A stretch of 64,000 nt of DNA from Microtetraspora sp. NBRC 16547 (GTDB lineage: Bacteria; Actinomycetota; Actinomycetes; Streptosporangiales; Streptosporangiaceae). The notes under the pieces were generated by a model, which saw only the letters and a program-made list of their open reading frames with translations, ran no database searches and was not told the DNA's origin. The stretch is from contig NZ_BSSE01000022.1 of the NCBI RefSeq assembly GCF_030268965.1, forward strand, positions 1 to 64,000, read 5' to 3'. The position numbers and the translations under genes are program-made. Below are positions 30,589 through 38,882 of the stretch, piece by piece (position 1 is the first letter of the stretch; every line of letters begins with the position of its first letter).

Positions 30589-30850
30589 CGCCGCGGATGC
30601 TCAGGAGCGGTCGAACCCGGTCCGCGGGCCGTCGGCGCCCGCACCGCGGGCCATCGGAGGCGCGCCGGTCGCACCGGCGCGGGCCGCGCCGGGACGCGTC
30701 GGTCTCACCCCGTCCGGACGCCCGCACGGAAAGTTAATGCGGCTGCCCCTGGGCGTTCAGCTCGGGCACCCCCTGCGTGACATCCCTCTGGCTAGGTTCT
30801 GGGACACCCCCGATCACCAGGGGCGTTGCCGCAGGTAGAAGGAGTGCACC

Positions 30851-32920
30851 GTGCGAGTCCTGGCCGTTGTCCCCGCCCGTGGCGGTTCGGTGGGCGTGCC
30901 GCTGAAGAACCTGGAGAGGGTGGGCGGCGTCCCGCTGGTGGCCCGGGCCGTCGGCGCGTGCCTACGGGCCGGACTCGTCGACGAGGTCGTGGTGAGCACG
31001 GATCACGAGAGCATCGCCGCCGCCGCCATGGAGGCGGGCGCGCGGGTCGTCGAGCGCCCCACGGAGCTGAGCGGATCCACCGCGTCCAGCGAGTCCGCCG
31101 TGCTGCACGCGCTCGACGAGCTGTCCGAGGACCCGGAGGTGGTCCTCCTCGTGCAGTGCACCAGCGCGTTCATCGACCCGGACGACCTGGACGCCGCGGT
31201 CAGCCGCGTCCTCGACGGCGGGGCGGACGTCGTCTTCTCCGGGATGGAGACCTACGAGTTCGTGTGGACCGGCGCCGGCGCGGGTGTCAACCACGATCCC
31301 GCCACGCGGCCGCGCCGGCAGGACCGCGAGCCGCACTACCGCGAGACCGGCGCCTTCTATGTGATGCGCACGGCGGGCCTGCGCGAGCACGGGCACCGCT
31401 TCTTCGGGCGGGTCACCGTACAGCCGGTCCCGGCACGGCACGCCGTGGAGGTCGACACCCCCGAGGACCTGGAGATCGTGCGGGCGCTCGCGCCGTTCGT
31501 GGACGAGCCGCTCCCGATCGACGTGGACGCCGTGGTGACCGACTTCGACGGCGTGCACACCGACGACCGGGCGTACGTCGACTCCGAGGGCCGGGAGATG
31601 GTCGCGGTCAGCCGGTCCGACGGCATGGGGGTGGCGCTGCTCAAGCGCTCCGGCGTGCGGCTGCTCGTGCTCTCGACCGAGCGCAACCCGGTGGTGGCCG
31701 CCCGCGCCCGCAAGCTCGGCGTTCCGGTGCTGCAGGGTCTCAACGCCAAGGAGACCGCGCTGCGCGACTGGCTGGCGATCGAGGGTCTGGACCCGGCGCG
31801 CGTGGCCTACGTCGGCAATGACGTCAACGACCTCGGCTGCATGGCCCTCGTCGGCTGGCCGGTCGCGGTCCCCGACGCCCACCCCCGCGTACGGGCCGCC
31901 GCCCGGGTGGTCCTCACTCACGCCGGCGGGGCGGGAGCCGTACGGGAACTGTGCGACCGGGTGCTCGCGGCCCGTCCCGAGGGTGCGGACGCTCCGGCGG
32001 AGCGGGAGGCCCGGCGAGTGGCCCGGCCCACGCTGCGCGTCAAGGGGGCGCCGGTGCGGATCGGCGCGGCGCAGGTCGGCCCCGGCCTGCCGGTGTACAT
32101 GATCGGCGAGATCGGCATCAACCACAACGGCGACATCGAGATCGCCCGCAGGCTGATCGACGTCGCGGCGGACGCCGGCTGCCAGGCGGTCAAGTTCCAG
32201 AAGCGGACCCCCGAAATCTGCGTGCCGCCGGAGCAGCGCGGCCAGATGCGGCAGACGCCGTGGGGCGAGATGACCTACCTCGACTACAAGATCCGGACGG
32301 AGTTCGGCCGGGACGAGTACACCGAGATCGCCAAGTACTGCGCGGAACGCGGCATCGAGTGGTTCGCCTCCCCCTGGGACGTTCCCTCGGTGGAGTTCCT
32401 CGAGGAGATGGACGTCGTCACGCACAAGGTCGCGTCCGCCTCGGTGACCGACCACGAGATGCTGCGCGCCCTCGCGGCGACCGGCAAGCCGATCATCCTC
32501 TCGACCGGCATGTCCACGATCGAGGAGATCGACCGGGCCGTGGAGATCCTCGGCACGTCACGGCTGGTGCTGATGCACGCGACCTCCACGTACCCGCTGC
32601 CTCCTGAGGAGGCCAACCTGCGGACGATCGTCACGCTCCAGGAGCGGTACGGCGTGCCGGTCGGCTACTCGGGTCACGAGCGCGGCCTGCAGATCTCTCT
32701 CGCCGCCGTCACTCTGGGCGCGGTCGCCGTCGAGCGGCACATCACGCTGGACCGGACGATGTGGGGCTCCGACCACGCGGCCTCGCTGGAGCCGAGCGGG
32801 CTGGAGCACCTGGTCAGGGACATCCGCATCATCGAGTCCGCCCTGGGAGACGGCGTCAAGCGCGTCTTCCCCGGCGAGGAGGCCCCCCGCGCCCGCCTCC
32901 GCCGGGTCACCGCCCTGTGA
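30851..32920 (+). CDS. Three-domain nonulosonic acid enzyme: CMP-sugar synthetase + HAD phosphatase + NeuB-type synthase
   Basis: A 689-residue fusion that appears to hold three consecutive activities of CMP-nonulosonic acid synthesis. Residues 1-220 are a NeuA-like cytidylyltransferase (VVPARGGSVGVPLKNL; GAFYVMRTAGL). Residues 225-385 are a KdsC-like HAD phosphatase (nucleophile D231 in DFDGVHTDD; VGNDVNDLGCM). Residues 400-689 are a NeuB-type PEP-condensing synthase (GEIGINHNGD, AVKFQK, HKVASASVTDHEM, VGYSGHE). The usual C-terminal SAF (antifreeze-like) domain of NeuB is missing. A phosphatase implies a 9-phosphate intermediate; with no NeuC epimerase nearby, mannose 6-phosphate to KDN is a reasonable but unproven route. 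The start is GTG with AAGGAG upstream. First gene of the locus. Confidence 0.92.
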   Translation: MRVLAVVPARGGSVGVPLKNLERVGGVPLVARAVGACLRAGLVDEVVVSTDHESIAAAAMEAGARVVERPTELSGSTASSESAVLHALDELSEDPEVVLLVQCTSAFIDPDDLDAAVSRVLDGGADVVFSGMETYEFVWTGAGAGVNHDPATRPRRQDREPHYRETGAFYVMRTAGLREHGHRFFGRVTVQPVPARHAVEVDTPEDLEIVRALAPFVDEPLPIDVDAVVTDFDGVHTDDRAYVDSEGREMVAVSRSDGMGVALLKRSGVRLLVLSTERNPVVAARARKLGVPVLQGLNAKETALRDWLAIEGLDPARVAYVGNDVNDLGCMALVGWPVAVPDAHPRVRAAARVVLTHAGGAGAVRELCDRVLAARPEGADAPAEREARRVARPTLRVKGAPVRIGAAQVGPGLPVYMIGEIGINHNGDIEIARRLIDVAADAGCQAVKFQKRTPEICVPPEQRGQMRQTPWGEMTYLDYKIRTEFGRDEYTEIAKYCAERGIEWFASPWDVPSVEFLEEMDVVTHKVASASVTDHEMLRALAATGKPIILSTGMSTIEEIDRAVEILGTSRLVLMHATSTYPLPPEEANLRTIVTLQERYGVPVGYSGHERGLQISLAAVTLGAVAVERHITLDRTMWGSDHAASLEPSGLEHLVRDIRIIESALGDGVKRVFPGEEAPRARLRRVTAL

Positions 32921-32963
32921 CGGAAAGCGGCCCCGGTGGCGGAACGCGGCCCAGTGACTGAGT

Positions 32964-33014
32964 GGGTCCAGTGACGGAGAGGGTCCAGTGACGGAGAGGG
33001 TCCAGTGACGGAGA
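32964..33014 (+). repeat. Three tandem 17-bp repeats between the fusion gene and the GT2 gene
   Basis: The unit GGGTCCAGTGACGGAGA occurs three times without interruption, with degenerate copies upstream (32921-32963). Each copy contains GTGACGG, so the array scatters potential GTG starts ahead of the true glycosyltransferase start at 33040. It fills most of the 119-bp gap. Confidence 0.85.
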
Positions 33015-33039
33015 GCGTCCCAGCGGCGGAAGGCGGCCC

Positions 33040-33990
33040 GTGCCCACGCTTTCGATGATCGTCGCGGTCCGGGACGGCGAGCCGTACCTCGCCGACGCGC
33101 TGGCGTCACTGGCCCGCGATCCGCGCGCGGATGCCGAGGTCATCGTCGTCGACGACGGATCGGTGGACGCCACCTCGGCGGTGGCCGAGGACTTCCGCGA
33201 AGACCTGCCGGGGTTCCGGCTCCTCCGCAACGCCGTGCCGGCCGGGGCGGGCGGCGCCAGGAACGCCGGCCTCGCGGTGGCGTCGGGACAATACGTGACG
33301 TTCCTCGACGGCGACGACTGGGTGGCCCCCGGCTACCTGGCCGAGCTGGTCACCGCGATCGACACGCTCGGCTGCGACTTCGTCCGGGTGGACCACGTCC
33401 AGGTCGAGGGCCACAGGCGAGAGCTGCTCCGGGCCCCGGAGAGCAGGCGGGACATCGTGCTCGATCCGCGGGACGCCATCCTGCCGTTCGACGCGAGGAC
33501 GATGGTGGACTACGCGTACACGTGGGCCGGGATCTACCGCCGTGACCTCGGACCGCTGCTCGCCTTCCCGGACGGCCTGCACACCGCCGAGGACCGGCCG
33601 TGGATCTGGCGGCTGCACCGCAAGGCGCGGTCGTTCGCCGTGGTCTCCCTCGCGGGCGTGTTCTACCGGCGCGGGGTGCCCGGGTCGCTGACCGCGATCG
33701 GGGACGAGCGGCAGCTCGACTTCTTCACTGCGTACGAGACGATCCTGGACGAGGTGGAGCCCGAGTTCCTCCTCAAGGCGGCGCGCAACCTGACCGGGCT
33801 CCTCGCGCACCACGTGGAGCTGATCGACCGGTTCACGCCCGAGCTGCGGGCGAGGTTCGAGGAACGCGCCGGTGAAGTCCTCCGGCGCGTCCCGCCCGAG
33901 GCCCTCGCCGGCATCGACCCGGACCGCCGCGCCCTCGTCGAGTCCTTCGCACCGCCACGACACGGACGTGCAGACGGAACTTCGCCATAG
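33040..33990 (+). CDS. Family 2 glycosyltransferase
   Basis: 316-residue inverting GT-A enzyme. The nucleotide-binding core reads LSMIVAVRDGEPYLADALAS, then VIVVDDGSVDATSAV and GGARNAGLAVASGQYVTFLD with the metal-binding GDDW. The C-terminal part (about 230-316) is helical and acidic. The GTG at 33040 immediately precedes the conserved strand. It lies between the nonulosonic acid enzyme and a polysialyltransferase-like gene, so it likely adds a sugar within the same surface polymer. Donor sugar unknown. Confidence 0.88.
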   Translation: MPTLSMIVAVRDGEPYLADALASLARDPRADAEVIVVDDGSVDATSAVAEDFREDLPGFRLLRNAVPAGAGGARNAGLAVASGQYVTFLDGDDWVAPGYLAELVTAIDTLGCDFVRVDHVQVEGHRRELLRAPESRRDIVLDPRDAILPFDARTMVDYAYTWAGIYRRDLGPLLAFPDGLHTAEDRPWIWRLHRKARSFAVVSLAGVFYRRGVPGSLTAIGDERQLDFFTAYETILDEVEPEFLLKAARNLTGLLAHHVELIDRFTPELRARFEERAGEVLRRVPPEALAGIDPDRRALVESFAPPRHGRADGTSP

Positions 33991-34053: not shown

Positions 34054-35580
34054 ATGGGACGGACCACGCTGTTCTGCGCCTCGACGCTGTTCGGGGCGAT
34101 GACCCTCGCGGCGGCGTGCGACGAAGGTCTGTTCGGCACCGGACGGAGAGTCCTGCTGGTGTCGAACAACGCCGCCATCCCCGAGATCACCCCGGCCCTC
34201 GACGACGCTCCCGGCTTCGCGGGGATCCGGGACCGGTTCGACGAGGTGGTGTCCTGGAACGCGATCATCGCCCCGCTGCACCCGTCCGACTGGAAGGCCC
34301 GCTCAGTGGAGACGCCGATGCTGGGCCGCCTCCTGTCGGCCCGCCTGGGCGAGCCTGACGAGCTGGTCGTCGAGTCGATCACCGTGCCGCCCTCCCGCAC
34401 TCTCGCGGGCCTGCTCAAGGACATCCCGATCACCGTTTATTCGGATGGCCTGATGAGCTACGGGCCCACGCGCTTTCCTCTGCCCAGGGAGATCGCCGGC
34501 CGGATCACCCGCCTGCTTCACCTCGATCTCGTCCCCGGGCTCGCTCCCCTGCTCCTGTCCGAATGCGGCGTGCCACCCGTGATCGTGTCCAGATCCGCCT
34601 TGACCAGAGTGATCGAACAGATCAAAGGTGACACCCCGACCACACGCGCCGCTGACTCGGGCCGGGAGTCACCGCATGCCGCAGGTTCGGGGCACAAGGC
34701 CGAACATGCGGATGACCTGGATCAGGACGCCGCGCCTCCGGCTGGTTCAGGTCAGGAGACTCGGTGTGCCGACGGTCGGGGTCGGGAGGCCGTCATCCTC
34801 GGGCAGTGCCTCTCCTCCCTCGACATCCTGACCACCGCCGAGGAGGCCGGGCTGCACGAGGCGATGCTGCGCGGTCTGGCCGCTCGGGGCCACCGAAAGG
34901 TCGTCTTCAAGCCGCACCCGGCCGCTGGACGGCGGCATGCGCGCGAGCTCCGGCCGATCGCCGAGGAACTCGGCGTCGAATTGCTGATCGCTCCCGGGAC
35001 GATGCCGGCCGAGGTCTGTTTCGCCGTACATCGCCCGCAGCTCGTCGTCGGGTGCTTCTCGACCGCGCTGGTGACCGCGCGGCGCTTCTTCGGCATCCCG
35101 GCCGCGACCGTGGGCGGCGACCTGGTGCTCGAACGGCTCTCGCCGTACGAGAACGGCAGCCGGATCCCCGCGACCGTCATCGACGCGAGCCTGCCCCGGC
35201 TCTCCGTCGACGGATCGCTCGTCGAACCACCGCCGGTGGACCTGAACGCCCTGGTCCGAGCGGTCGGTTACTGCATGCGCAGTGCGGCGCATCCGGACCT
35301 GCGCGAGGCCGCCGCGGCATTCATCAAGGACAACATCAAGGACGGCGGAGCCGCGCGCTACTTCAAGCACCGCCGCCTGTCCTCGCTTGCCCTGCTTCCC
35401 ACTCCGATGCCGGACCCGGCCTCAGGCCGAGAGCCGAAGGAGGAATCACCCCCAGGACAGGGACGGGACCCGGAGCCGAGCGTGCAGCCCATTCAGGGAG
35501 CGGAGCCGACCCAGGGAACACCCGGACCAGGATCCGCCAAGACGCCCGTCTCTCGCTTGCGCCGCTTCCTCTCCCGCTGA
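34054..35580 (+). CDS. Polysialyltransferase-family glycosyltransferase
   Basis: A 508-residue protein resembling bacterial alpha-2,8-polysialyltransferase-like glycosyltransferases (PF07388-type; assigned by pattern). N-terminal FCASTLFGAMTLAAACDEGL and VLLVSNNAAIPEI, central GQCLSSLDILTTAEEAGLHE and the HRKVVFKPHPAAGRRH block with a KPHP motif, then the FSTALVTARRFFGIPAATVG segment, fit a GT-B fold using CMP-activated sugars. A hydrophilic Ser/Gly/His/Asp insertion (about 195-245) and a Pro/Gln-rich tail (about 455-495) are low-complexity. The ATG is preceded by GGGAG. It presumably polymerises the CMP-nonulosonic acid made by the fusion enzyme. Confidence 0.78.
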   Translation: MGRTTLFCASTLFGAMTLAAACDEGLFGTGRRVLLVSNNAAIPEITPALDDAPGFAGIRDRFDEVVSWNAIIAPLHPSDWKARSVETPMLGRLLSARLGEPDELVVESITVPPSRTLAGLLKDIPITVYSDGLMSYGPTRFPLPREIAGRITRLLHLDLVPGLAPLLLSECGVPPVIVSRSALTRVIEQIKGDTPTTRAADSGRESPHAAGSGHKAEHADDLDQDAAPPAGSGQETRCADGRGREAVILGQCLSSLDILTTAEEAGLHEAMLRGLAARGHRKVVFKPHPAAGRRHARELRPIAEELGVELLIAPGTMPAEVCFAVHRPQLVVGCFSTALVTARRFFGIPAATVGGDLVLERLSPYENGSRIPATVIDASLPRLSVDGSLVEPPPVDLNALVRAVGYCMRSAAHPDLREAAAAFIKDNIKDGGAARYFKHRRLSSLALLPTPMPDPASGREPKEESPPGQGRDPEPSVQPIQGAEPTQGTPGPGSAKTPVSRLRRFLSR

Positions 35581-35799: not shown

Positions 35800-36135
35800 A
35801 TGGTCGAGTATATGCAGGCTGTCACAACTGTAGACACCAGCAGGAAGGGGTCGGACCTAGCGTGGAGCATCGTTGAGAAGAGGCTTGCCGCATGCGTCCA
35901 AATCGTCGGCCCTATCCGATCGTTCTGTTGGTGGGAGGGCCGGTTGGAGGAAGCTCAGGAATGGCAGCTTCTCATGAAGACCACCGCCGATCTCTTCCCA
36001 GCGCTTGAGGAACACATCAAAGCGAACCACAGCTACGAGACACCAGAGATCATCGCTACACCGATCGTGGCCGGTAGCCAGGAGTATCTCCGGTGGATCA
36101 GCGATGAGACCAGGCAGTCCGGCGCTTCGCAGTAG
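35800..36135 (+). CDS. cutA: CutA1-type divalent cation tolerance protein
   Basis: A small trimeric-fold protein (111 residues) of the CutA1 family, recognised by VEKRLAACVQIVGPIRSFCW, WWEGRLEEAQEWQLLMKTT and the NHSYETPEIIATPIVAGSQE block. The family binds divalent cations, but its physiological role is unsettled. AAGGAG precedes the ATG. Base composition is less GC-rich than in flanking genes, and it stands alone inside a glycan locus, which suggests insertion by transfer. The preceding 200 bp also contain an AT-richer stretch and a short open frame (ending 35768) of unknown nature. Confidence 0.93.
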   Translation: MVEYMQAVTTVDTSRKGSDLAWSIVEKRLAACVQIVGPIRSFCWWEGRLEEAQEWQLLMKTTADLFPALEEHIKANHSYETPEIIATPIVAGSQEYLRWISDETRQSGASQ

Positions 36136-36281: not shown

Positions 36282-37631
36282 TTAAAAAGCTTTCAGGTAG
36301 CGGCGCATACGGCGCTTGGCACGATAGCCGTAGCGCAGGACCCGGGGCGGGAGCTCGAGTCGGAGCCGGGCGCGGCGCCGCGCAGGGGCATGGTCCGGCC
36401 CGTCGAGCAGGGACCGGGCGGGCACGAGGCTTCCCTCCCTGGCGGACGCGACCAGTTCCTCGATCCGGCCGAGCCAGTCGCTCTCGGTGTCGTCGTGGAA
36501 GTAGTTGGCTCGGCACCAGTCCTCGCCCGGCACGCGGAAGTCTCCCTTGGCGAGGTCGTCCAGCGTGCCGAGACAGCCGCTTCCCTCGAAGACCAGGTTG
36601 ATCATCTCGGCGCTCACTCCGAAATCGGACAGCACGAGGAGCGGCACATTCCTGGCGATCGCCTCCAGGGCGGCTGTCGAACTGACCGTGACGAACCCGG
36701 CGGCGCGGGCCAGATGCTCGTGCATCGGTCCGGCGGCGAACCGTACCGCATCGAGACGGACCCTCCCCTCTCCGGCCATCGCGAGCCAGAGGCGCTCGTA
36801 GTGATGACGTTCGTTGTGAGTCTGACGTTCGTAATCACGCGCCCTGAGCTTGACCACGACCTCGAGGTCGGGACGGGCGTCGGCCAGGGCGGCAAGGGCG
36901 AGCAGCACGTTCTCGCGTTCCTCGCGGCGTCGCGGCACCTTGGCCTGAGTCGCGAAGATCACCTTGTCCCGCTGGGCCGGTTCGAAGCTCCCGAGGTCGA
37001 GGTACGGCAGCCGGGCCAGGGCCACCCCGCCGCCGCCCCCGAGTTCGCGTCCGACAGCGGAGAACTCCCGTACCTCCCGTCCGCTGTGCACGACGAAAAG
37101 CTCGCATCCGCTGCGGTATAGCCACGCCTTCTCCGTGGCCGGCACGGAGATGCCCGGGAGTCCGGACACGAACACCGGGCGTGGCCGCAGGTCGGAGAGG
37201 ATCTCGGCGGCGAGGACGTCGACCACGGGGCCGGTGCAGGCCAACAGCACGACGTCTGGCCGGAAGCGCTCGGCCGTACGGCGCAGCCGCCTCGCCGAGA
37301 GGACGGGCGGCCCGGTCCAGCGCCGGTCCCCCGCGGCACCGCCGTCGTCATCGGACGATCCTGGCGCGCACCCGTTCATGGGCACGCCTGCGCCACCATC
37401 GGAAGGTTCAATGTGCGCCGATGCGGTGGCGACCGTGGAACCGGCGTGCTGTCCCGCTCGCCGCTCCATCCGCGTCCCGCTCACCGCCGCACGGATCTGG
37501 CTCTCGGACGGCGCTATCGGTGAGCGCACGACGGCCAACTCGCTGATCCAATCTGGAGGCATGGCGTCGAGAAGGCCGGCAGCCCACTTCAGGTACGAGT
37601 CGGAGTCGGCCACGGCGAGCACGCGGATCAA
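36282..37631 (-). CDS. Putative glycosyltransferase (DUF6716-like)
   Basis: A 449-residue protein of the group annotated as DUF6716 putative glycosyltransferases (assigned from the N-terminus IRVLAVADSDSYLKWAAGLL). It has a GT-B-like layout: FVSGLPGISVPATEKAWLYR in the middle, then VIFATQAKVPRRREERENVL, VVVKLRARDYERQTH, and a late VTVSSTAALEAIARNVPLLV segment like the donor site of CDP/CMP-dependent transferases. A low-complexity Gly/Asp stretch (about 80-105) interrupts the first domain. The TTG at 37631 overlaps the stop of the upstream gene (TTGA), implying coupling. C-terminus basic, possibly membrane-associated. Confidence 0.7.
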   Translation of the reverse strand: MIRVLAVADSDSYLKWAAGLLDAMPPDWISELAVVRSPIAPSESQIRAAVSGTRMERRAGQHAGSTVATASAHIEPSDGGAGVPMNGCAPGSSDDDGGAAGDRRWTGPPVLSARRLRRTAERFRPDVVLLACTGPVVDVLAAEILSDLRPRPVFVSGLPGISVPATEKAWLYRSGCELFVVHSGREVREFSAVGRELGGGGGVALARLPYLDLGSFEPAQRDKVIFATQAKVPRRREERENVLLALAALADARPDLEVVVKLRARDYERQTHNERHHYERLWLAMAGEGRVRLDAVRFAAGPMHEHLARAAGFVTVSSTAALEAIARNVPLLVLSDFGVSAEMINLVFEGSGCLGTLDDLAKGDFRVPGEDWCRANYFHDDTESDWLGRIEELVASAREGSLVPARSLLDGPDHAPARRRARLRLELPPRVLRYGYRAKRRMRRYLKAF

Positions 37632-38698
37632 GGAGCAACCTTTCCGGGGACCGGGGTCTCCCCCGGCGCGACAGACGGGGCAGTCGGAGCAGACGAGACG
37701 GTCGGGGCGGGGACGTCGGTGAAGATCTGGAGGTGGGCGCGCAGGGAGGGAGCGGCGGACGATGTCCACCAGTCGTCCGGCACGGCGACGGCCTCGACGT
37801 CGACGCCACGGCCGGACAACAGGACGCGGAGCGAGGTGACCGCCGTAGACGGCAGGCTGAGCACGCGCTGGCCGGGGCGGAGGTCACGGAGCGTCATCTC
37901 GGCGGGCGCCCCGGAGTCGTAGACGGTGAGGCCCGTGATCCGGCGGACCCGGTCCAGGTCGCGCGGATCCTCCTTGCGATGCGGGTAGTACGCGACAGGC
38001 TCGCCGAGGTCCCGGAGCCACCGCAGGTACCGGTCGCGATGGATGAGTCCGTTACGAACGAGGGACGTGCCGAGCACCACCGTGCGCTCCTCGGGCGCGG
38101 GGCACGCGGGCCGGGAGCGCAGCCACGCGAAGTCGTGGCCGACGAGGTCGGCCCCCAGATCGCGTACGGCTCCCGCCAAGTCCTGCGGGACCGGTAGCGC
38201 GGTGAACACGGTCAGCCCGCGGCCGCGCAGCCGCATCCCGGCGGCGGCGCCGAGCACCGATCGGGCGAGGCCGGCCGAGGCCCGCGCGCGCAGCAGCGGC
38301 CGGCGCGTGGTGAGCAGTTCGAGGAGGCGGATCGTGGCGAGGCCGTCGTCGACCAAGACGATCCGCCGCGGGCGGGTGGTGAGCACACGCATCTGGACCC
38401 GGCCGGAGAAGGCGTCGCCCACGGCCCAGATCCTGCCGGGCCGCGGCATGCCGGCGGAGGGTTCGGCGAGGCGCAGTCCCTCGGGAAGCCCGAGCCGTCC
38501 GAGCTCTCGGCCGGTGAGCCGCAGTGCACGCTGGCCGGCCCTCGGCACGACGAGGGTGTCCGGGGCGAGAAGGCCGGCGTGCTGCGCCTCGACGACGCAC
38601 AACAACTGCAGCGGGGACTCGACCCACGCGACGGCCGGTCCCTGCTCGACGGCGTGGCGCCGACCCGCGTTGCCCACGTCCGGTGAAGACCCGTTCAC
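37628..38698 (-). CDS. Glycosyltransferase-52-like / sialyltransferase-like protein
   Basis: A 356-residue protein with the N-terminal AWVESPLQLLCVVEAQHAG signature typical of GT52- and polysialyltransferase-related proteins. Further elements are RIVLVDDGLATIRLLELL, RTVVLGTSLVRNGLIHRDRY, the AYYPHRKEDPRD motif (His in YPH-x-KE) and LPSTAVTSLRVLLSG, matching the donor-binding half of CMP-sialic-acid-using GT-B enzymes. GTG start; the C-terminal 30 residues are Pro/Thr-rich. It is translated ahead of the DUF6716-like gene, and the pair faces the CMP-nonulosonic acid locus, so it likely uses the same donor. The exact linkage is unknown. Confidence 0.72.
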   Translation of the reverse strand: MNGSSPDVGNAGRRHAVEQGPAVAWVESPLQLLCVVEAQHAGLLAPDTLVVPRAGQRALRLTGRELGRLGLPEGLRLAEPSAGMPRPGRIWAVGDAFSGRVQMRVLTTRPRRIVLVDDGLATIRLLELLTTRRPLLRARASAGLARSVLGAAAGMRLRGRGLTVFTALPVPQDLAGAVRDLGADLVGHDFAWLRSRPACPAPEERTVVLGTSLVRNGLIHRDRYLRWLRDLGEPVAYYPHRKEDPRDLDRVRRITGLTVYDSGAPAEMTLRDLRPGQRVLSLPSTAVTSLRVLLSGRGVDVEAVAVPDDWWTSSAAPSLRAHLQIFTDVPAPTVSSAPTAPSVAPGETPVPGKVAP

Positions 38699-38882
38699 GA
38701 CGCCACGAAGCTACTCGCGGCAGGCTTCTCATCCCCGACGCGCCCGCGAACGTCAGGTGAACAGGCACCGACGACGCCCCTGTTCCACCGCCGGGAAGCG
38801 GGAGCCCTGCCCTCGCTGTACGCCGCGACGTCGACCGGGGCCTGCTGCCGTTGGCCAAAACCTGGTCGGGCAGCATTGGAAT

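Follow-up and report, generated by a model that had tools for sequence, protein, structure and literature searches.

The soil bacterium Microtetraspora sp. NBRC 16547 encodes, in a single continuous reading frame, a protein that unites the synthase, phosphatase and CMP-activating domains of nonulosonic acid biosynthesis. The fusion is real and conserved, and the protein is probably active. Taken as a whole, it is quite probable that one chain performs three steps and that the resulting CMP-Kdn feeds a teichulosonic acid made under PhoP control. The computed basis is the domain content, conserved residues, one fusion origin in the family, a conserved neighborhood and promoter motifs; the predicted activities, the putative Kdn product and the candidate polymer are read from these. 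The window referred to below is the whole 64,000-nucleotide stretch that was analyzed.

The fusion gene occupies positions 30851–32920 of the forward strand and encodes 689 residues with no internal stops. Its start codon is GTG, with GAAGGAG just 5′ of it. From N- to C-terminus the protein comprises a NeuA-like cytidylyltransferase, a KdsC-type HAD phosphatase, a variable linker and a NeuB domain lacking SAF, and the order of the chemical steps is reversed along the chain (activation, phosphatase, synthase):

30851..31507, forward strand: NeuA-like cytidylyltransferase domain, predicted CMP-Kdn synthetase (residues 1–219; CTP_transf_3; nearest structures 1qwj and 9t4z)
31514..31978, forward strand: KdsC-type HAD phosphatase domain (residues 222–376; matches to 3mmz, to KdsC structures and to 3e81; conserved residues)
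31979..32050, forward strand: variable linker (residues 377–400), located where split relatives have the stop and the start of neuB
32051..32917, forward strand: NeuB synthase domain without SAF (residues 401–689; Pfam NeuB; active-site residues mapped)

Pfam (CTP_transf_3 5–195, HAD-type matches inside 262–359, NeuB 435–670) and NCBIfam (KdsC and KDN-9-P-phosphatase models inside 226–376, NeuB_NnaB 415–682) agree with the original prediction of a NeuA–HAD–NeuB protein in reverse pathway order. The NCBIfam matches all lie below their cut-offs, as do matches of the PseI and PseF models to fitting stretches, and none of the three domains reaches an NCBIfam equivalog cut-off. Purifying selection acts on each of the three domains: in comparisons with five relatives, dN/dS is 0.17–0.23 for NeuA, 0.04–0.07 for HAD and 0.11–0.17 for NeuB, and 0.31–2.4 for the short linker. 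A structure model of the full-length protein (pLDDT 66, pTM 0.43) is too weak to describe the arrangement of active sites. Short tandem repeats lie at and behind the fusion stop (32913–33020; a 17-bp unit in 4.1 copies, preceded by a 19-bp unit).

The solved structures nearest to the NeuA domain are mouse CMAS (1qwj, 1.8e-32) and the PpNeuA CMP-Kdn synthetase (9t4z, 2.4e-32). NmCSS R12, K21, Q104, R165 and D211, which we take to be functional residues of this type of CMP-sialate synthetase, are all kept (R10, K19, Q102, R156 and D202), and the position of NmCSS D209 is filled by E200. A loop Lys (NmCSS K16; Lys in mouse CMAS also) corresponds to V14. In all 115 unbroken three-domain loci this position is Val, Ala or Thr, and in 27 of 27 other readable rows it is Lys, one further row being unreadable. 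The three-domain loci come from fewer than 115 independent genomes, since the window genome is included twice and some species are represented by both named and unnamed copies. The figure of 115 derives from 117 rows classed as fused, after removal of L145 (reversed gene order, misclassified) and L149 (Lys kept, counted in the 27). Loss of the loop Lys was considered as a mark of fusion and dropped as an explanation, because it extends to family f47 whether its loci are split (15/15) or in open frames shared by NeuA-HAD and NeuB (15/15), all 30 having Gln, Ala, Val or Arg instead.

The NeuB domain matches the full Pfam model PF03102 (1–241 of 241, E 1.9e-84) and misses the cut-off of the NeuB_NnaB equivalog TIGR03569 (267.3 vs. 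399.65 bits). Ten residues of meningococcal NeuB, presumed here to be the PEP, metal and catalytic ligands (E25, K53, Q55, K129, S132, Y186, S213, H215, H236 and D247), are retained as E420, K448, Q450, K526, S529, Y581, S607, H609, H630 and D641 and are constant in every fused row. Ser is found at the positions of meningococcal T110, E134 and N184. Pfam did not find SAF (PF08666) in the fusion protein. NeuB proteins of its clade end 0–19 residues past the aligned stretch, and Pfam detects SAF in the family paralogues L046 and L047 and in none of the tested relatives L037, L134 and L145. Since the clade NeuB proteins end so early and the tested relatives lack SAF, its absence is, as judged from sequence, a property of the clade and not of the fusion. 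The original prediction had concluded from the missing SAF that substrate closure must differ. The absence stands; a special closure is not called for, as the clade is generally SAF-less and the chain of Leptospira borgpetersenii NeuB (6NCS) has 290 residues.

Predicted glycosyltransferase genes follow the fusion gene, two downstream on its own strand and two more on the opposite strand. Their conservation was scored in the 70 named loci longer than 19 kb:

33040..33990, forward strand: family 2 glycosyltransferase (Glycos_transf_2, Pfam; match in 70/70)
34054..35580, forward strand: A-2,8-polysialyltransferase-like gene (PF07388, Pfam; match in 70/70)
36282..37769, reverse strand: DUF6716 putative glycosyltransferase (Pfam, 1.4e-127; match in 61/70, not found in 9)
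37628..38698, reverse strand: gene without a Pfam family, predicted sialyltransferase-like GT-B fold (structure model; match in 60/70, not found in 10)

The true start of the DUF6716 gene is probably below 37769, the frame overlapping the next gene. Sequence searches with the 37628–38698 product were empty in Pfam, NCBIfam, PHROG and PDB. Its structure model, for which 26 of 32 relatives were used (L054, L060, L070, L074, L086 and L126 were dropped for a stop in the tblastn stretch), is confident (pLDDT 81.9, pTM 0.80), and the best fold matches are 5wcn (9.3e-7, TM 0.50) and 2yk4 (1.9e-6, TM 0.39). The modeled fold is surely GT-B. Eight of the 12 PDB fold matches at E ≤0.001 are bacterial sialyl- or polysialyltransferases; a sialyl-type donor is a guess, because plant glycosyltransferases and PseG make up the remaining four. 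A histidine kinase gene was rejected as a cluster member: it matches in 50 of the 70 long loci, yet in only 20 is it the immediate upstream neighbor in the same orientation. Between the polysialyltransferase-like and DUF6716 genes lies a CutA gene (35800–36135), which may be an insertion special to the window genome, as none of the 70 loci has a match (E 1e-8). In Planobispora takensis (L077, 11113–14554), about 3.4 kb separate the fusion gene from the family 2 glycosyltransferase match.

Split-gene loci of other families carry related gene sets. In family f20 (L134–L137, L142) the order is ORF38k, NeuB, NeuA-HAD, DUF6716, family 2 glycosyltransferase, polysialyltransferase, which fits the labels of SCO4881 to SCO4877 in the available part of a published account (PMC2267785), and the window cluster is likened to this Streptomyces coelicolor region for that reason. 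From the f20 gene order and the published product names we infer that f20 is Streptomyces and that SCO4880 and SCO4881 are the NeuA-HAD and NeuB genes; with identities assigned in this way, the window cluster has SCO4877–SCO4882-type gene content. The passages available describe SCO4873–SCO4882 as teichulosonic acid genes under PhoP (PMC13011467, citing Ostash 2014) and the polymer as galactose and Kdn (PMC11481543, PMC7831098).

The window genome contains one ManA-type isomerase and, for the NeuB family, one full match (the fusion) and one partial match. The one Epimerase_2 protein found in it passes the WecB cut-off and fails that for NeuC. Neither NanE nor a NeuC-type epimerase was found in the genome, an absence that falls short of proof because the assembly consists of 151 contigs. 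The original prediction had favored mannose 6-phosphate on the lack of a nearby NeuC-type epimerase, and the genome-wide content is in keeping with this; synteny with the S. coelicolor region, as far as the published excerpts describe it, strengthens the case. The presence of ManA, the failure to find NanE or a NeuC-type enzyme, and cluster homology together speak for mannose 6-phosphate as substrate and Kdn as product more than for ManNAc-6-phosphate and Neu5Ac. The same three steps could in principle start from ManNAc-6-phosphate and give CMP-Neu5Ac or another N-acylated nonulosonic acid. The same three folds do serve Neu5Ac-9-P synthesis in animals, and mouse CMAS is by a hair the nearest NeuA structure, but the missing epimerases, the likeness to a region tied, in the excerpts at hand, to a Kdn polymer, and the missing SAF domain, which in meningococcal NeuB supplies the Arg contact to the N-acetyl group, make this unlikely. 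The route from mannose 6-phosphate through Kdn-9-P and Kdn to CMP-Kdn is likely, and the prediction of Kdn from the sequence has good support.

The HAD domain has its closest PDB entry in 3mmz from Streptomyces avermitilis (2.2e-57), with 3e81 also among the structure matches (2.5e-17). It misses the cut-offs for the KdsC subfamily (TIGR01670, 90.7 vs. 106.95 bits) and for the KDN-9-P phosphatase equivalog (NF058599, 81.6 vs. 180 bits). Of the residues that we assume to be catalytic in motifs I–IV, D231, D233, S275, K300 and D327 are identical in all readable rows and D324 is also present, so that the domain carries the catalytic residues of a C0-type (KdsC-like) phosphatase. Motif IV reads GNDVND, not GDD, its first acid being replaced by Asn (N323) in nearly all rows, 3mmz included. 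That substitution, and the NeuA-HAD order common to the fusion and animal CMAS, would suit a domain that, like its counterpart in CMAS, has lost phosphatase activity and persists as a structural remnant, with another phosphatase acting. Against this, mouse CMAS has lost the nucleophile itself, while the five residues above are kept throughout and the HAD domain has the lowest dN/dS of the three; a remnant is therefore improbable. With its catalytic residues conserved, the domain points to a 9-phosphate route, as had been proposed. Across the three near-complete domains, the catalytic residues looked for are conserved.

The three-domain architecture, for which the original prediction had suggested a database search, is widespread in Streptosporangiaceae. 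The scan of named genomes returned 465 relatives; the best 80 of these are all stop-free three-domain frames running from residue 1 to at least residue 677, and all belong to Streptosporangiaceae, the nearest being a Microtetraspora at 93%. They represent Microtetraspora, Acrocarpospora, Planotetraspora, Sphaerisporangium, Microbispora, Streptosporangium, Planomonospora, Planobispora, Nonomuraea, Herbidospora, Spongiactinospora, Thermocatellispora and Thermoactinospora, together with one strain named to family level and one filed as [Actinomadura] parvosata, which we take to be a member of the family. Among family genomes, 77 of 150 match, 53 with an unbroken full-length frame and seven more with one in-frame stop. 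An assembly or frameshift artefact is rejected because the frame is stop-free in all 80 best loci and unbroken in so many family genomes. Searches of the class and the phylum gave matches in 150/345 and 88/396 genomes, many of them weak, and outside Streptosporangiaceae the usual state is NeuA-HAD adjoining a separate NeuB. One locus (L149; G439:C45, 1758–3404) encodes NeuA and NeuB within a single open frame and shows no HAD match in the intervening stretch, a two-domain arrangement. A similar gene set reaches rhizobia: a capsule locus on Sinorhizobium meliloti pSymB (L183; CP140934.1, 4851–11081), with a match about 41% identical to the window protein, contains NeuB, acylneuraminate cytidylyltransferase, DUF6716 and alpha-2,3-sialyltransferase genes.

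Among the split relatives retrieved from the family, eight align across a stop (L031–L036, L039 and L042), and in each of them it falls at query residues 376–379, which is the junction. In a NeuB tree of 52 hand-chosen rows (17 of the 80 named fusions included, L149 labeled split), the 23 family fusions form one group with support of 93/82, next to 14 rows from this family in which the genes are split. The fusion is accordingly placed at a single origin in Streptosporangiaceae, from adjacent neuA-HAD and neuB genes. One open frame from f47 (G478) falls elsewhere in the tree, so that two changes are needed. Such shared NeuA-HAD/NeuB frames in f47 (L153–L157, L165–L170, L172, L173, L180 and L182) are not counted as committed fusions, and G478 not as a second origin, because a ribosome-site-like motif with a start precedes neuB in 14 of 15; the f47 frames are probably still translated as two units and perhaps represent an intermediate on the way to fusion. 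The committed fusion appears to be a trait of Streptosporangiaceae. Production of both the full fusion and a separate NeuB through an internal start, for which the f47 frames, a weak in-frame AAGGGG-N6-GTG at residue 402 of the window gene and an AAGGG-type motif ahead of GTG there in 4 of 80 named fusions might argue, is very unlikely given that a stricter pattern of ribosome-site-like motif and start codon occurs around the linker in 0/80 named fusions vs. 13/14 split family loci before neuB (the L036 match being at an unlikely place).

Two PHO-box-like sites lie in the promoter regions of the cluster:

30733..30776, forward strand: PHO-box-like site upstream of the fusion gene, GTTAA and GTTCA at a spacing of 22 bp, which can be read as direct repeats of 11-nt units
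38741..38762, reverse strand: PHO-box-like site GTTCACC-N4-GTTCGCG, 43–64 bp upstream of the GTG at 38698

The 22-spaced pair at 30733 is the single occurrence in the window, counting both strands. A GTT[AC]A pair with this spacing, a pattern picked after inspection of the alignment, lies within 200 bp upstream of the fusion in 74 of 80 named relatives vs. 75 of 8000 random 200-bp windows drawn from these loci, and no other spacing between 8 and 33 exceeds 4/80. Upstream of the 38698 gene, a GTTCACC-N4-GTTC element is often found at the same distance. Scored against what we take to be the PHO-box consensus, this promoter reaches at least 11 of 14 in 34 of 63 loci (window included) vs. 3.1% of 1620 random windows. 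By its 11-bp-spaced GTTCACC core the fusion promoter is weak (13/81 loci at 11 or more, both strands), and a looser PHO-box pattern is not significant in the window (four found; four or more in 7 of 100 shuffles). PhoP may bind at these sites. In the part of the Planobispora rosea RNA-seq study available (PMC8269224), the Pho-regulon table lists counterparts of SCO4877, 4878, 4879, 4880 and 4882 as PhoP-activated, and the authors' term is teichuronic acids. No SCO4881 counterpart appears in that table (PMC8269224), which fusion of the 4880 and 4881 genes in P. rosea would explain; P. rosea belongs to the same family, and the fusion is present in its congener P. takensis. The sites and the portion of the RNA-seq work seen here suggest that the cluster is under phosphate-starvation control. 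The original prediction was silent on the wall-polymer neighborhood, the likely phosphate control and the family-wide spread of the fusion.

In the proposed pathway, Kdn-9-phosphate would be formed by condensation of PEP with mannose 6-phosphate in the NeuB domain and dephosphorylated to Kdn by the HAD domain, after which the NeuA domain would couple Kdn with CTP to form CMP-Kdn. The neighboring transferases would then use CMP-Kdn to build a Kdn-containing, phosphate-free wall polymer, a teichulosonic acid, during phosphate shortage and under the control of PhoP. We lean, if by a small step, towards a fuller interpretation, in which a committed trifunctional CMP-Kdn synthase, having become fixed a single time in an ancestor shared by much of Streptosporangiaceae, would lead from mannose 6-phosphate to CMP-Kdn in one chain, possibly with channelling and phosphate recycling, and be dedicated to a starvation-induced phosphate-free wall polymer. 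Expression of this one gene should probe the Kdn enzymology of actinobacterial teichulosonic acids in a single pot, and the fusion could serve as a compact tool for CMP-Kdn production. The cluster also points to a sialyltransferase-like gene without a Pfam family.

Parts of the fusion recur in known systems. CMAS joins NeuA and HAD, the mouse HAD part lacking the nucleophile; like the fusion, animal CMAS (mouse 1qwj; HAD part 3ewi) has NeuA and a KdsC-like HAD in one protein but, unlike it, no attached NeuB. PpNeuA (9T4Z, released 2026-03-11) is about 34% identical to the fusion NeuA domain and shares the Val at the loop Lys position and the RPRRQD motif, while its solved chain is NeuA only. 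The KDN phosphatase of Bacteroides thetaiotaomicron (3e81) is likewise a C0 HAD of a 9-phosphate route, in a pathway (BT1713–BT1715) of separate proteins; the fusion HAD misses the NCBIfam cut-off for this Bacteroides type. L. borgpetersenii NeuB is the best sequence and structure match of the fusion NeuB (13–271 matched) and, unlike the window protein, is unfused. We recognized no printed description of the triple fusion among the open-access matches listed, most subscription papers lying outside that scope. The closest system as a whole is S. coelicolor, where, to the extent that the published excerpts cover it, SCO4880 and SCO4881 have the same domains, family 2 glycosyltransferase, polysialyltransferase, DUF6716 and ORF38k-like neighbors, and Pho control; there NeuA-HAD and NeuB are two genes, whereas in the window they form one protein and the gene order is rearranged. 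The comparison suggests that wall polymers containing Kdn, together with their regulation by phosphate, are found not just in Streptomyces but also in Streptosporangiaceae. The pathway and polymer are already known from Streptomyces, and the three-way fusion in one chain is a variant of them.
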